This document shows, piece after piece, positions 14,116 to 21,775 of a DNA stretch of 22,072 bases. The translations under genes and the position numbers were made by a program. Source of the DNA: a virus; IMG/VR virus record IMGVR_UViG_3300032296_001952, positions 1-22,072 of that record. One strand, 5' to 3'. The notes under the pieces were generated by a model. It searched no databases and had not been told where the DNA came from. It saw only the letters and a program-made list of their open reading frames with translations. Position 1 is the first letter of the stretch. Each line of letters starts with the position of its first letter.

Positions 14116-14967
14116 TTAGTCGCGGTCTTCAGCGGAATCCTCGTAGATTGTGATCCACTTGGGGTCTTCGCCTCTACGCAAGTACGCAGCCTTTGCGAAA
14201 TTCCACTCTTCGCGCTCTTGGATGCGGTAGCCCTTGCGATGCTTCTTTGAGAACCTACGAGCAGACTGTTCGTCATCAAAATACTCGTAGTTGCCTTGGT
14301 CATCCATCCCGCCCCACAAACCGCTTGATGTCTTCCAGATGTCGCCTGGACGGTGGCGTTGAGTAGCCTTGGATTCGGCTTCCTTGCCCTGTGCCTTCTG
14401 CTGTGGGGTTTCGTCCTTCACATTGAACACGAACTTCGTGTCGCTGTGCGGTCCCTTCTTCAGACTAGAGAAGAAGTCAATGACCTTGTGCTTGGCAAGT
14501 TCAAGATTGTCCTGACCAGCACCCTTCCTGAAGCGCATGAGAACCTTGCCCACACCAGCCTCTTCATTCGTGCCAATGTAGTAGAAGTCCTGATCGTTCT
14601 TGTACATCACAGAGTGCTGTTGGAACTTGCGACCAAGATCCACGATGCCCTTCTTTGTGATATTAGGAATGAGCAGACTCAATTCCTCCACATAGCCTTC
14701 GTCACCCTTGTAGCCGCCACGGAGTTCAATGAATCCGTAGCCCATCTGACGAACCATCTTCTTCAGTTCTTCGTGACGAGCCTTGTTCTCCTTGTCGGAG
14801 TTTACACCACGGAACGCGCTAACAATGCCAAAGTCCTTCTTGTCGTCTTCCACATATTGGAACACGCGGGACAGTTTGGCTTCAACAAGCGAAACCTCGG
14901 TGGCTTCCTTGTGGGACAGAGCCTCCTGTAGTCCGCGCGTATCAAGATATTGGGTGAACTTTTTCAT
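14116..14967 (-). CDS. DUF3293-like protein with possible capsid-targeting leader
   Basis: 283 residues. Residues ~45-160 (FGIVSAFRGVNSDKENKARH, then MGYGFIELRGGYKGD, EELSLLIPN and QHSVMYKN) match the look of DUF3293-type proteins found in phages and bacteria; biochemical role unknown. The N-terminus MKKFTQYLDTRGLQEALSH resembles T4 internal-head-protein leaders: a short amphipathic start followed by LQE-A, which fits the T4 prohead protease rule (L/I-x-E before a small residue). The C-terminal ~90 residues are charged with WKTSSGLWGG. A TATAAATA late promoter 25 bases upstream agrees with a virion or late role. Its start overlaps the end of the deaminase-like gene by 26 bases. Confidence 0.6.
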   Translation of the reverse strand: MKKFTQYLDTRGLQEALSHKEATEVSLVEAKLSRVFQYVEDDKKDFGIVSAFRGVNSDKENKARHEELKKMVRQMGYGFIELRGGYKGDEGYVEELSLLIPNITKKGIVDLGRKFQQHSVMYKNDQDFYYIGTNEEAGVGKVLMRFRKGAGQDNLELAKHKVIDFFSSLKKGPHSDTKFVFNVKDETPQQKAQGKEAESKATQRHRPGDIWKTSSGLWGGMDDQGNYEYFDDEQSARRFSKKHRKGYRIQEREEWNFAKAAYLRRGEDPKWITIYEDSAEDRD

Positions 14968-16324: not shown

Positions 16325-16804
16325 TCACCATCTAAAATATCGCATGGCAGCAGCCACGCCGATGGTAACACCCGTGAGAGCAGTGCAGAAAGCAATTGCA
16401 AAAAGAAGAGGATGGTTGAATGCGAAATTCTTCAATTTCTCAAACTGACCATCTGTAAAATTGTCAAGCCAAGCCGATGAGTCTTCAGCCAATTCTTTAA
16501 TTGCTGAAGTCCAACTATTCGGCTTTTCCGAATCGTCCAAGTAGTCCAGACGGCTAGGAACGCTGATCTTTGTGTACTCCACTGGCGGAACTAGTGGAGT
16601 GTCCGCATGAGTTGGAGCGGGAGTGGGAACAGCACCAACATCCGCAAGAAAGTCGTTCACCGAACCTTCGCTCCAAACAGTCTTGATAGCGGGTTCAGTG
16701 GTGACCATGCTCTTTGGCTTCTTGGCGCGAGGCTTGCGGACTTTGGGTGCATCAGCCTTTTTGACTCGTTTGCTGACGGGCTTCTTGATCTTCTTCTTTG
16801 CCAT
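16325..16804 (-). CDS. Lys-rich, tail-anchored membrane protein, unknown
   Basis: 159 residues from ATG 16804 (ribosome binding site AAGGAGA; an upstream in-frame ATG at 16885 lies inside the HNH gene and is unlikely). Residues 2-40 are very basic with KKPVSKRVKK and RKPRAKKP, histone-tail-like, able to bind nucleic acid or membrane phosphates. A Pro-rich acidic linker follows, and the C-terminus has a single membrane segment (~residues 131-152, LLFAIAFCTALTGVTIGVAAAM) with RYFRW after it. Layout: cytoplasmic basic head, C-terminal anchor. It follows the HNH gene after 11 bases and is probably co-transcribed. No family recognised. Confidence 0.6.
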   Translation of the reverse strand: MAKKKIKKPVSKRVKKADAPKVRKPRAKKPKSMVTTEPAIKTVWSEGSVNDFLADVGAVPTPAPTHADTPLVPPVEYTKISVPSRLDYLDDSEKPNSWTSAIKELAEDSSAWLDNFTDGQFEKLKNFAFNHPLLFAIAFCTALTGVTIGVAAAMRYFRW

Positions 16805-16815
16805 TTCGTGTCTCC

Positions 16816-17184
16816 TTACTGAAGCAATCCCATGCGCTTCATCAACTCTGTGTTTGAATGCTCTATGCTGTGGCAACAAGCACACAGTAGTTCACACTTA
16901 TCCAACTCCGACCAACGCTCTTTTAGTAGCAATCCGTTTCCACTTATACCAAACTCTTTTTTGGATGGATCTTTATGGTGGAATTGTAGCGCACCAGGAT
17001 GTCCGCTCCAACCACACCTTTCACACTTTCCGCCCTTGGCTTCAACCAATTCTATTTTGGTCTTCCACCGCCTCTTTGTCACCCCACACGAATTGCATTG
17101 CGTTCTACCAGCACTGCTTCTCTTTTTTTGCGAGGGGGCGAGTTTGCACTCCTTGCCGCAATATTTGCATATTGGTTTACTCAT
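16816..17184 (-). CDS. HNH-type endonuclease (homing-like)
   Basis: 122 residues. An N-terminal zinc knuckle (CKYCGKEC...CNSCG, ~residues 6-34), a second CxxC (CERCGWSG, ~55), LQFHHKDPSK (~69-78; the HH of the HNH motif), and CELLCACCHSIEH (~97-109). This is the Cys-rich HNH layout of phage and intron-associated nucleases that nick or cut DNA. It lies only 38 bases downstream of a tRNA-Lys gene holding a group I intron, so it is a candidate mobility partner of that intron although encoded outside it. Its ribosome binding site lies in a hairpin loop (17182-17210), suggesting controlled translation. Confidence 0.8.
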   Translation of the reverse strand: MSKPICKYCGKECKLAPSQKKRSSAGRTQCNSCGVTKRRWKTKIELVEAKGGKCERCGWSGHPGALQFHHKDPSKKEFGISGNGLLLKERWSELDKCELLCACCHSIEHSNTELMKRMGLLQ

Positions 17185-17210
17185 AGATTAGCAACTCCTT
17201 CTAATCTATG
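17182..17210 (-). promoter_or_regulatory. Perfect hairpin holding the HNH ribosome binding site and start codon
   Basis: 10-bp inverted repeat CATAGATTAG / CTAATCTATG around a 9-base loop AAGGAGTTG (minus strand). The loop is the ribosome binding site and the ATG forms the base of the 3' arm. No T-run follows, so it is a translation control element more than a terminator. Confidence 0.7.
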
Positions 17211-17222
17211 TATACTAACAAA

Positions 17223-17479
17223 TACCTTGGGTGGGGTTCGAACCCACGACTTGCGGATTAACTTACCACTTCGGCTTACGCCGCCCTTGCGGTTCGTGGT
17301 CTGGACTTTGCCTTCATCCGTTCTGGATGCCCGCCGTCAAGTCTCTACACCTTCGCATTTCTGCGCTTGGCTCGGCGTTGGGCGTTTAGCCGTTCACCGA
17401 ATTTGACGGGATTCATTACACCATTCCTAATGCAATGCTCCTATGAAGTCCGCTACTCTACCAACTGAGTTACCAAGGT
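17223..17479 (-). tRNA. tRNA-Lys(UUU) interrupted by a group I intron
   Basis: 5' exon 17479-17446: acceptor ACCTTGG, D arm ACTC-AGTTGGTA-GAGT, anticodon stem GCGGA, loop CTT. 3' exon 17251-17223: loop TTAA, TCCGC, T arm GTGGG-TTCGAAC-CCCAC, acceptor CCAAGGT, discriminator A. Joined, the anticodon loop is CTTTTAA with anticodon UUU, as in normal tRNA-Lys. The intron falls between positions 34 and 35. CCA is not encoded. Confidence 0.88.
17252..17445 (-). ncRNA. Group I self-splicing intron (IC3-like), about 194 nt
   Basis: The 5' exon ends in U and the intron ends in G, as group I introns require. A guide GAGC near the intron start can pair with the exon end CUU with a U-G at the splice site. 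The core matches the cyanobacterial tRNA-Leu intron: AACGGCTAAAC, GCCGAGCCAAGC (P4-P6 joining), then GAAGGTGTAGAGACTTGACG (P7/P3 side) and AAAGTCCAGACC (P7 other side). No reading frame inside. Very small for the class. Exact splice points are inferred. Confidence 0.85.
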
Positions 17480-17488
17480 GTGATGTGT

Positions 17489-17728
17489 TCAGTCAATAGA
17501 GTCCCATAGGGACGGCTGTTTCCCGTACTCAATCATCTTGCGCTTCTGTTCCATTTCGGAAAGCAAGAGCGAAAGGCGGTTGATGATTTCCTCAACCTCT
17601 TCAATACAGTATGTATCCACCTGCTCGGGCGTGTCCAAGCCGCGAATGCACAGAGTGGGTTCGCCTTCAATGTGCGGGTTGGTGGTGATCTGCATTGTGA
17701 TATTGTCTAGATGGTCAACATTGGTCAT
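17489..17728 (-). CDS. Small acidic protein, unknown
   Basis: 79 residues; clear ribosome binding site AAAGGAGA before ATG 17728. The N-terminal half reads as beta strands (ITMQITTNPHIEGEPTLCI), the C-terminal half as a long amphipathic helix (~residues 36-70, EEVEEIINRLSLLLSEMEQK). Net acidic with a WDSID end. No family recognised. It sits between tRNA-Gly (upstream) and the intron-bearing tRNA-Lys (10 bases downstream), so all three are probably on one transcript and the tRNAs are released by processing. Confidence 0.65.
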   Translation of the reverse strand: MTNVDHLDNITMQITTNPHIEGEPTLCIRGLDTPEQVDTYCIEEVEEIINRLSLLLSEMEQKRKMIEYGKQPSLWDSID

Positions 17729-19552: not shown

Positions 19553-19864
19553 CTTGATCCGTTCAGATGCGGGAGGATCAGTCCCCACGGCTTCAAGCCG
19601 CCATCGCCATTCTGTTGGCGTTTGTAGTTGCGCCAGTGTTTTTAACGAGGGTCTGATGCACCCCTCGGGTATCTCCTGCTTCTCTACTGCACACCAGTCG
19701 ATTCCGTATCGACCCCGTATATTTGCCCCCACTGCAACTGGAGGACTTGACTGCGGGAAGAGGCGGGTGATGCAGTTACTCCGCATTCGCGCATCTTTTG
19801 AATGGAGTCGGGGGGATTCGAACCCCCGTGCTGTATGTGTGTCGATCCGCTATCAACAATACCG
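19535..19864 (-). ncRNA. ssrA: Circularly permuted (two-piece) tmRNA
   Basis: In transcription order: the acceptor piece comes first (about 19864-19803), with a T arm GGGGG-TTCGAAT-CCCCC and 3' strand CGACTCC plus discriminator A; then an ~86-nt intervening segment (19802-19717); then the coding piece from GGGGTCG at 19716 with the tmRNA signature GGAATCGAC. GGGGTCG pairs fully with CGACTCC, including G3-U70, the alanine identity pair. Pseudoknot 1 is visible (CGAGGG/CCCTCG, then GTG/CAC). The tag frame 19631-19593 reads ATTNANRMAMAA and stop. CCA is not encoded. tmRNA with SmpB rescues stalled ribosomes and tags proteins for breakdown. Exact mature ends are estimated. Confidence 0.9.
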
Positions 19865-20332: not shown

Positions 20333-20360
20333 GTTATGTATCTCACGAACAGTATATCAA
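20333..20360 (-). promoter_or_regulatory. Possible sigma70-like promoter
   Basis: Minus strand TTGATA (20360-20355), 16-base spacer, CATAAC (20338-20333), 43 bases before ATG 20289. The -35 box overlaps the stop of the 20357 gene. Weaker -10 than the others. Confidence 0.4.
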
Positions 20361-20989
20361 CGGCGGCGGGTAAATCCACCAATTATTCCACCGATTGCCA
20401 AAAGAGAAATTGCGCCAGGTGCTGGCACAACACCCACGCCGAAATCGCACCAGTCAATCAGATTGCCTTGCGTGTTGCCACCCACTGCGCTCACAGCCTC
20501 AAACGCAAACCGCATGGAATTTCCCAAAGATGTCACACTGCCGTAGTTCAATACCCATGCAGTGTTGTCTGCGGAAAATTCACTAGTGTATACGGTGGTG
20601 TCATTTCCTCCACCCCAATCTCCATCCGATCCCAAGTCCGTAATTGTCAGTCGCATCGTGTCTGTGCCGTACCGTCCGTGGTGGGCAAAGTGCCAGTTCA
20701 CCGAAGAACCAGCACTGATGGGAGCCACCGTCTGATACAGAGTGGAAGCGTAGTTTGCATTCAGTTCCGCGCAACGAGTTCCATCGTATGCGCTGATCTC
20801 CATGTATTCTCCCCAAATCTCAATAAGATTGTCGGGAGCAGTGGTGAGCCATGAAGTGTCGATTCCGCCCTGTATAAATCCGTATCCGTAATACACATCG
20901 TTGTTCTCAAAACTTCCATCAACCAATCCGCCCATAGCGGATGCGCTGACAGTTGCTGCACCGATAGCCGACAGTATTTGCTTTTGCAT
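20357..20989 (-). CDS. Secreted protein with PEP-CTERM-like sorting tail
   Basis: 210 residues. N-terminal signal-like segment (QILSAIGAATVSASAMGG); then a galactose-binding/jelly-roll-like secreted domain: DGSFENNDVYYG..., YGTDTMRLTITDLGSDGDWG, then WCDFGVGV. The end is VPAPGAISLLAIGGIIGGFTRRR in sense: the VPAPG box, a ~13-residue membrane helix, and RRR (write-up of residues ~188-210). This three-part tail is the PEP-CTERM signal processed by an exosortase in Gram-negative bacteria; the VPAPG variant is frequent in planctomycetes. A phage gene for such a substrate would decorate the infected host envelope. Ribosome binding site AAGGAG; follows the 20999 gene after 9 bases in one operon. 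Confidence 0.75.
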   Translation of the reverse strand: MQKQILSAIGAATVSASAMGGLVDGSFENNDVYYGYGFIQGGIDTSWLTTAPDNLIEIWGEYMEISAYDGTRCAELNANYASTLYQTVAPISAGSSVNWHFAHHGRYGTDTMRLTITDLGSDGDWGGGNDTTVYTSEFSADNTAWVLNYGSVTSLGNSMRFAFEAVSAVGGNTQGNLIDWCDFGVGVVPAPGAISLLAIGGIIGGFTRRR

Positions 20990-20998
20990 CTAGTCTCC

Positions 20999-21775
20999 TT
21001 ATGCCCGTCTGCGATTGTGAATGAGTCCGCTCATGGCAAAAAGAGTGATGGGAGCAGGAGAGGGAACAACCGCTCCTGCATATGAGTACGCAAACCCGCT
21101 GCTGTCATCAAACGGCAGCAGAGGCGCACTAAACGAAATCGTGTACAGCGGCGGAAGAGGTTCGCTCAATGCCGCAATGAGATTTTTCGAAACTTCTTGT
21201 ATTTCGGCAGAGGTGATCTGCTGCAAGCCTGGCTTGCTGATGTTCGTGTCTGTGGTGTACGGACTCCAGTCTTCAACGATGGGAGAGGGCTGCTCCCCTG
21301 TCATCGAAATTCTGCTGCCTGCCCAGACACCAGAGATGTCTCCGTTGCCGCCCGAATCTTGATTTGTTATGGATTTGTTCTTTGGAATGTACGGCTTCCA
21401 CCCGCCACCCCAACCAATCTTCGTGGTGTTATCAGCAGGAGCGGCAGACTGATCCGATGGTGCAGCCTCGCCCGTGATCTTCTCCTGCATTGCTTTGGCA
21501 GAGTCGATCTTCGCGGTGATCTTGTCCACCATTTCCTGCCCGATCACTACACCACCAACAGCAGTAGCCAGTTGGAATGCAATAAGTTTTTTCTTCAGGC
21601 TTTTGACTTCAGCCTCGGCTTCGTCTGCCCGCTTTGCGTTTTCGGCTTCCCGCTCGCGCCGTTCGGCTTCACGGGCTTCAACACATTTTTTAAGACCCTC
21701 GCGGAGTTCTTCCCGCTCGGCATTCTTTAGTTTTTCACATTCACACGGCGATCCTGCGCTGTGCTTGTGTGTCAT
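20999..21775 (-). CDS. Coiled-coil protein with PEP-CTERM-like tail
   Basis: 258 residues. Residues ~10-66: a long Glu/Lys/Arg coiled coil with an N-terminal CxC; ~67-85 a hydrophobic segment (IAFQLATAVGGVVIG); a polar Ser/Pro/Gly-rich middle; then a C-terminal VPSPAP box, short hydrophobic stretch (ITLFAMSGLI) and HNRRRA end. The tail resembles PEP-CTERM but is weaker than its neighbour's, and there is no N-terminal signal peptide, so export would depend on the internal hydrophobic segment. CAGGAGG precedes the ATG; a CATAAATA motif lies ~54 bases upstream. It forms an operon with the 20357 gene. Confidence 0.6.
   Translation of the reverse strand: MTHKHSAGSPCECEKLKNAEREELREGLKKCVEAREAERREREAENAKRADEAEAEVKSLKKKLIAFQLATAVGGVVIGQEMVDKITAKIDSAKAMQEKITGEAAPSDQSAAPADNTTKIGWGGGWKPYIPKNKSITNQDSGGNGDISGVWAGSRISMTGEQPSPIVEDWSPYTTDTNISKPGLQQITSAEIQEVSKNLIAALSEPLPPLYTISFSAPLLPFDDSSGFAYSYAGAVVPSPAPITLFAMSGLIHNRRRA

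Follow-up and report, generated by a model that had tools for sequence, protein, structure and literature searches.

Introns of the IC3 subgroup of group I occupy the anticodon loops of bacterial tRNA-Leu(UAA), tRNA-Arg(CCU) and the tRNA-Ile(CAU) of Azoarcus. GNRA loops on P2 and P9 are part of the anatomy of these tRNA introns. In T4-like phages, group I introns tied to homing endonucleases are found in td, nrdB and nrdD, and a 2014 review placed all phage group I introns then known in protein genes, despite the many tRNA genes of phages (PMC3984707). We describe here a putative self-splicing group I intron in a phage tRNA-Lys(UUU) gene, carried by the IMG/VR record IMGVR_UViG_3300032296_001952 (positions 1 to 22,072, analysed at full length and called the window below). 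It resembles the bacterial IC3 introns in size class, P1-P9 layout, GNRA loops on P2 and P9 and anticodon-loop site, and it lies between nucleotides 34 and 35 like the bacterial tRNA-Leu(UAA) introns. However, its host is a phage tRNA-Lys(UUU), and it falls in a phage clade apart from the sampled alphaproteobacterial introns. Unlike the introns of td, nrdB and nrdD, it sits in a tRNA gene and has no internal open reading frame (ORF) (PMC3984707).

Three other systems come close. Alphaproteobacterial tRNA-Lys(UUU) introns (L104/L240 and L265) share the tRNA and the 34/35 site, but they are 215 and 223 nucleotides (nt) long, form a separate branch and, in L104, lie on a chromosomal-type contig. 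In the trans homing of cyanophage psbA (PMC3984707), an ORF-less intron likewise stands beside a free-standing endonuclease gene; here, in contrast, the host gene is a tRNA and cleavage at the insertion site is only predicted. T4 SegB (PMC2988022) is encoded among tRNA genes with a hairpin over its start region, as is the nuclease of the window. SegB is, however, a GIY-YIG enzyme with no intron involved, whereas the window nuclease is of the HNH type and lies beside an intron. The 'group I introns' of 22-49 nt claimed in cyanobacterial tRNAs, including tRNA-Lys (PMC5733544), are not used as a precedent since they are too short for a group I core.

The split tRNA-Lys gene

In its intron mode, ARAGORN reports a gene at c[17223,17479] whose nucleotides 34 and 35 are separated by a 184-nt intron (gactt-intron-ttaat) and whose exons join into a full cloverleaf. 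Our own enumeration of splice sites, which demanded a U before the intron, a G at its end and a full cloverleaf, gives a single solution in the window, Lys(UUU) at 34/35. The initial annotation, made from the sequence alone, had placed a group I intron in the anticodon loop of a tRNA-Lys(UUU) of a T4-like phage, with these same boundaries and at the position of the tRNA-Leu(UAA) intron. Enumeration, covariation and fold agree with it on the intron, the tRNA, the boundaries and the position, on the minus strand. Its length for the insert, 194 nt, was 10 nt too great, the 257 nt of the gene minus the 73 nt of the tRNA leaving 184. The group I core segments it had recognized are borne out by the match to Rfam model RF00028, by RNAalifold and by covariation.

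Default ARAGORN, with the intron option off, does not call the split gene, nor does Rfam at its gathering cut-off call the gene or the intron. At a permissive threshold RF00028 yields a full-length match of 38.3 bits (E 2e-8 in a 401-base search; cut-off 50 bits). Four homologues of the same intron, in L102, L098, L091 and L030, pass the cut-off with 50.6-64.3 bits. The assignment of the window to a T4-like phage holds on its gene content, which includes the families gp53, T4 baseplate hub, gp32, DNA end protector and head-closure.

Ribozyme fold and covariation

The intron was aligned with its homologues to give 16 tRNA-Lys introns, 15 from phages or viral contigs and one bacterial. RNAalifold, run blind, recovers P1-P6, P3, P8 and P9 unaided, and 44 of the 69 pairs (tRNA stems counted) have changed on both sides with pairing kept. 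With P7 added by hand, the model has 77 pairs, 96.8% of them paired across the alignment. The covariation score, which pools tRNA stems and intron helices, is 0.535 versus 0.177 in shuffled alignments (0/500 as high) and at most 0.098 in slid registers, and these controls reject chance as the source of the fold. Because the model structure was taken from the window sequence, the percentage paired is by itself biased towards that structure. The double changes within intron helices are free of this bias; they affect 5 of 6 pairs in P3, 10 of 10 in P2 and 4 of 4 in P9b, and in the fully paired P7 a U-A pair is replaced by A-U.

All 16 sequences keep the U34.G pair of P1, and the last intron base is G in every homologue checked. 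Alignment and fold both place a conserved P3-P8 core with the P3/P7 pseudoknot in the window intron, and plain folding of the window copy alone gives the hairpins P2, P4, P5, P6, P6a, P8 and P9 (z -4.0). By anatomy alone, a compact tRNA intron of 184 nt with GGAA on P2 and GUAA on the P9 extension fits the IC3 subgroup.

We put the probability that the phage tRNA-Lys gene contains a self-splicing group I intron at roughly 0.85, and on this model splicing in vivo is very likely. The transcript of this small, ORF-less, IC3-like intron between U34 and U35 would fold as a ribozyme. Guanosine would attack after U34, a second attack at the terminal intron G would join the exons, and a normal tRNA-Lys(UUU) would be released. 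Since splicing would give a normal tRNA, the insertion is expected to be near neutral.

An allele without intron and endonuclease

Relatives identified by gp32 were compared with 10-kb flanks. In L220, whose gp32 is 98% identical, the order tRNA-Gly, 79-amino acid (aa) ORF, tRNA-Lys and next ORF is that of the window. The tRNA-Lys is an unbroken 73 nt (75.4 bits with RF00005), and no HNH gene follows it. The two loci thus differ by the exact presence or absence of 184 nt, with identical exons around the insertion site; the sequence flanking the 5' exon splice site is the same, and unbroken, in L220. Over their full length the joined exons of the window match the L220 tRNA-Lys at 69 of 73 positions, and the four differences make up two compensatory pairs, indicating that the tRNA is still constrained.

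L163 and others are like L220 in carrying neither intron nor endonuclease, the slot is intron-free in many further gp32 relatives, and the exact uninterrupted tRNA-Lys site occurs in 37 viral stretches. In L218/L219 and L238 the intron is present in the same slot and the HNH gene is missing. The existence of close relatives without both the intron and its adjacent HNH gene suggests that the intron is a mobile element.

The adjacent HNH endonuclease

The HNH protein of the window has intact zinc CxxC pairs and an intact HH...N...H motif. An 89% identical protein is encoded at the same place in L105, directly 3' of the intron-bearing tRNA-Lys, and a homologue lies 3' of such a gene in L066 and 5' of one in L069, while L091 has one on each side. 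The combination of an ORF-less intron with an adjoining free-standing endonuclease gene is thus found in the window and in L105, L066, L091 and L069. A different arrangement is seen in L006 (LR756511.1, a 595-kb phage record), in which a tRNA intron has an HNH-like ORF inside, versus the separate HNH gene of the window. In the syntenic slot of L180 (about 1440-1520), a diverged HNH gene adjoins a tRNA-Lys-like gene that has no intron and whose T loop, GTGCAAG, is unusual.

With identical copies removed and 500-bp flanks required, an HNH gene lies within 50 bp of 5 of 14 intron-plus and 0 of 32 intron-minus tRNA-Lys loci (Fisher p 0.0015); related phages are not independent, so the association is suggestive only. 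The start of the HNH gene is enclosed in a hairpin formed by an inverted repeat, whose loop carries the ribosome-binding site and whose stem includes the start codon. In L105, L066, L091 and L049 the sequence differs but the arrangement is the same. Comparable start-region hairpins are described for I-TevI, segB and Aeh1 mobE in a review of T4 mobile elements (PMC2988022).

We consider it somewhat better than an even bet that the neighbouring HNH gene takes part in spreading the intron, by collaborative (trans) homing. The nuclease, whose gene begins 38 nt beyond the tRNA, would cleave tRNA-Lys alleles that lack the intron in phages infecting the same cell, and the intron and the HNH gene would be copied together during repair. 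Cleavage of the tRNA gene and co-conversion are predicted steps of this model.

Table 1. Features of the split tRNA-Lys locus (window coordinates)
Feature	Position	Strand	Evidence or remark
tRNA-Lys(UUU) gene split by group I intron	17223-17479	minus	ARAGORN with introns allowed
5' exon of tRNA-Lys(UUU), nt 1-34, ending ...GCGGACUU	17446..17479	minus	ARAGORN -i; splice-site enumeration; comparison with L220
Group I intron, 184 nt, CAUAGGAG...GGUAAG	17262..17445	minus	RF00028; RNAalifold and pair counts (16 homologues); missing from L220
3' exon of tRNA-Lys(UUU), nt 35-73 (UUAA UCCGC...), CCA not encoded	17223..17261	minus	ARAGORN; splice-site enumeration
Internal guide sequence GGAG of P1	17438..17441	minus	U34 (17446) pairs with the second G, giving the U.G splice-site pair
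P7 strands GACUU (17339-17343) and AAGUC (17304-17308), guanosine-site helix	17304..17343	minus	100% paired, compensatory change
P3, pseudoknot with P7	17405-17410 with 17330-17335	minus	pair counts in alignment
GGAA (GNRA) tetraloop on P2	17424..17427	minus	sequence and structure
GUAA (GNRA) tetraloop on P9 extension	17276..17279	minus	sequence and structure
Free-standing HNH endonuclease, 122 aa, 38 nt downstream of tRNA, co-oriented	16816..17184	minus	phrog_2255, E 2.5e-23
Perfect 10-bp inverted repeat CATAGATTAG-AAGGAGTTG-CTAATCTATG	17182..17210	minus	fold z -2.4
Upstream neighbour ORF, 79 aa, one flank of syntenic slot	17489..17728	minus	88% identical in L220
Downstream neighbour ORF, other flank of slot	16325..16804	minus	95% identical in L220, directly after the unbroken tRNA-Lys

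Descent of the intron

A tree of 49 tRNA introns was built from 197 columns; its bootstrap is not fully settled, and its bacteria are Alphaproteobacteria only. The window intron falls in a phage clade (support 97/96) of nine Lys and three Leu(UAA) introns, and the L105 intron is 98% identical to it. The mixture of tRNA-Lys and tRNA-Leu(UAA) introns in this clade indicates that the lineage has changed tRNA hosts. Its Leu loci are T4-like and lie beside a gp43-type DNA polymerase gene. In L025, L078 and L081, the polymerase ORF near the intron-bearing tRNA-Leu(UAA) is about 490-500 aa long and matches only the N-terminal part of the 856-position family; it is perhaps a split gene with the tRNAs at the split.

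Bacterial Lys introns fall outside the clade of the window, on a separate branch with bacterial Leu and Arg introns, and the intron of Gordonia phage Daredevil groups with bacterial introns. A single clade for all phage Lys introns is rejected (approximately unbiased (AU) test, p 0.011). The phage or bacterial label needs only three changes on the tree.

Alternative explanations

The proposal of a self-splicing intron that homes with its neighbour is built on the observed structure, the splice geometry, the syntenic allele devoid of intron and HNH gene, the association of the HNH family with tRNA genes and with intron-plus tRNA-Lys, and the change of tRNA host. Several points weigh against it. 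The RF00028 score of the window intron lies under the curated cut-off; this HNH gene is not near 9 of the 14 intron-plus tRNA-Lys loci; a related HNH (44%) in L180 adjoins an intronless, odd tRNA-Lys-like gene; and related phages enter the Fisher counts as if they were independent. The intron might be real and self-splicing but passive, inherited or recombined, next to an unrelated intronless-homing gene that, like T4 SegB, targets tRNA regions. Other members of the HNH family do usually adjoin intronless phage tRNA genes, often tRNA-Asn, which suggests a family that homes to tRNA genes and has come upon an intron. The absence of this HNH gene from those nine loci means that it is not needed for persistence of the intron and may be an independent tRNA-gene parasite. 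However, it is both elements together that distinguish the window from L220, and HNH genes flank intron-plus tRNA-Lys genes on either or both sides (L069, L091) and none of the 32 intronless copies. We regard a passive intron as possible, at clearly less than even odds, and favour collaborative homing.

The low RF00028 score would also suit a degenerate intron that has lost splicing and left the tRNA a dead pseudogene. This is very unlikely, as all core helices and the U.G pair of P1 are intact, the exons still form a full cloverleaf, in which changes are compensatory, and homologues with the same core reach 64 bits. The most improbable explanation, now largely refuted, is an assembly chimera or host-chromosome contamination that brought a bacterial tRNA intron into a phage contig. 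The window is indeed a 22-kb metagenomic record, and two alphaproteobacterial genomes do have tRNA-Lys introns. Against this, independent contigs with gp32 and the neighbouring genes in common (L218/L219, L238) have the same intron in the same slot, L105 has a near-identical intron with the same HNH gene, and the bacterial Lys introns branch elsewhere.

Spread of tRNA introns in phages and bacteria

An exact core pattern finds matches in 90 viral stretches. ARAGORN isotypes for several of these introns (SeC, Ala, Stop) were wrong, and splice pairs with U before the intron and G at its end were therefore enumerated instead. Many introns are thereby placed in tRNA-Leu(UAA), tRNA-Lys(UUU), tRNA-Arg(UCU), a CAU-anticodon tRNA, tRNA-Asn and tRNA-Gln, the isotype being ambiguous for some (e.g. 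Lys 35/36 or Thr). A second class, in L028, L040, L049, L050 and L084-L086, most plausibly interrupts either tRNA-Lys(UUU) at 35/36 or tRNA-Thr at 34/35; in L049 an HNH gene (57%) with the same start hairpin lies 44 bp downstream.

Phage isolates are also represented. Daredevil has a tRNA-Lys intron where no feature is annotated. In this temperate phage (NC_048021, 41820-42131; L003) the intron-bearing tRNA-Lys is close to the integrase gene and may overlap attP. Agrobacterium phage Atu_ph07 has a 278-nt intron in a tRNA-Leu, at a place without annotation in the record; the paper on this phage counts 33 tRNAs with tRNAscan-SE and mentions no intron. The annotated 286-nt tRNA-Arg of Microcoleus phage My-WqHQDG is a tRNA-Arg(CCU) with a 213-nt intron. 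A blastn search of INPHARED with the introns of the window, L105, L005 and L003 matched few isolates. Introns in protein genes among these matches (Pelagibacter HTVC120P capsid, Vibrio VEN terminase and crAss cr116_1 DNA polymerase) were set aside.

Among 84,980 prokaryote species, a strict tRNA-Lys pattern finds one bacterium. A model search of 289 alphaproteobacterial genomes finds group I introns in 27, and in two of these a tRNA-Lys(UUU) is interrupted at 34/35 as in the window. Phages are therefore not alone in having introns at the Lys site. The view in the initial annotation that the host is a different tRNA is thus right for the classic cyanobacterial case and does not extend to these two genomes. 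That annotation, supported in its reading of the intron, had overlooked that an HNH gene adjoins, that relatives without the intron exist and that phage tRNA introns, judged from these matches, appear to be widespread and not a single oddity. No later report of phage tRNA introns was found in the literature searched, most subscription papers lying outside it, and their novelty is provisional.

Other features of the window

A permuted two-piece transfer-messenger RNA (tmRNA; RF04321, 70.4 bits) with the tag ANRMAMAA lies at 19593-19863 (minus strand). Permuted tmRNAs are also present in the relatives L102 and L057, and a one-piece tmRNA in L067. An ORF at 14116-14967 (minus) matches the S-adenosylmethionine lyase family (PF23780, E 1e-9), is conserved in syntenic relatives and possibly has an anti-restriction function. 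At 20357-21775 (minus), two ORFs have PEP-CTERM-like tails (VPAPGAISLLAIGGIIGGFTRRR; VPSPAPITLFAMSGLIHNRRRA), and an NCBIfam search of these two gave no match. The tails may hint at a planctomycete or similar host.

Significance

Standard tRNA finders skip intron-bearing genes, and phage tRNA sets are undercounted as a result. The window and L220 form a ready intron-plus/intron-minus pair that bears on the way in which a ribozyme intron can unite with a separate nuclease as one mobile element, and on the switching of tRNA introns from one tRNA species to another. There is, in our judgement, an even chance that phages keep their own pool of mobile anticodon-loop group I introns, which would pass from phage to phage and from one tRNA species to another (Lys and Leu(UAA)) in collaboration with free-standing, tRNA-adjacent HNH nucleases.
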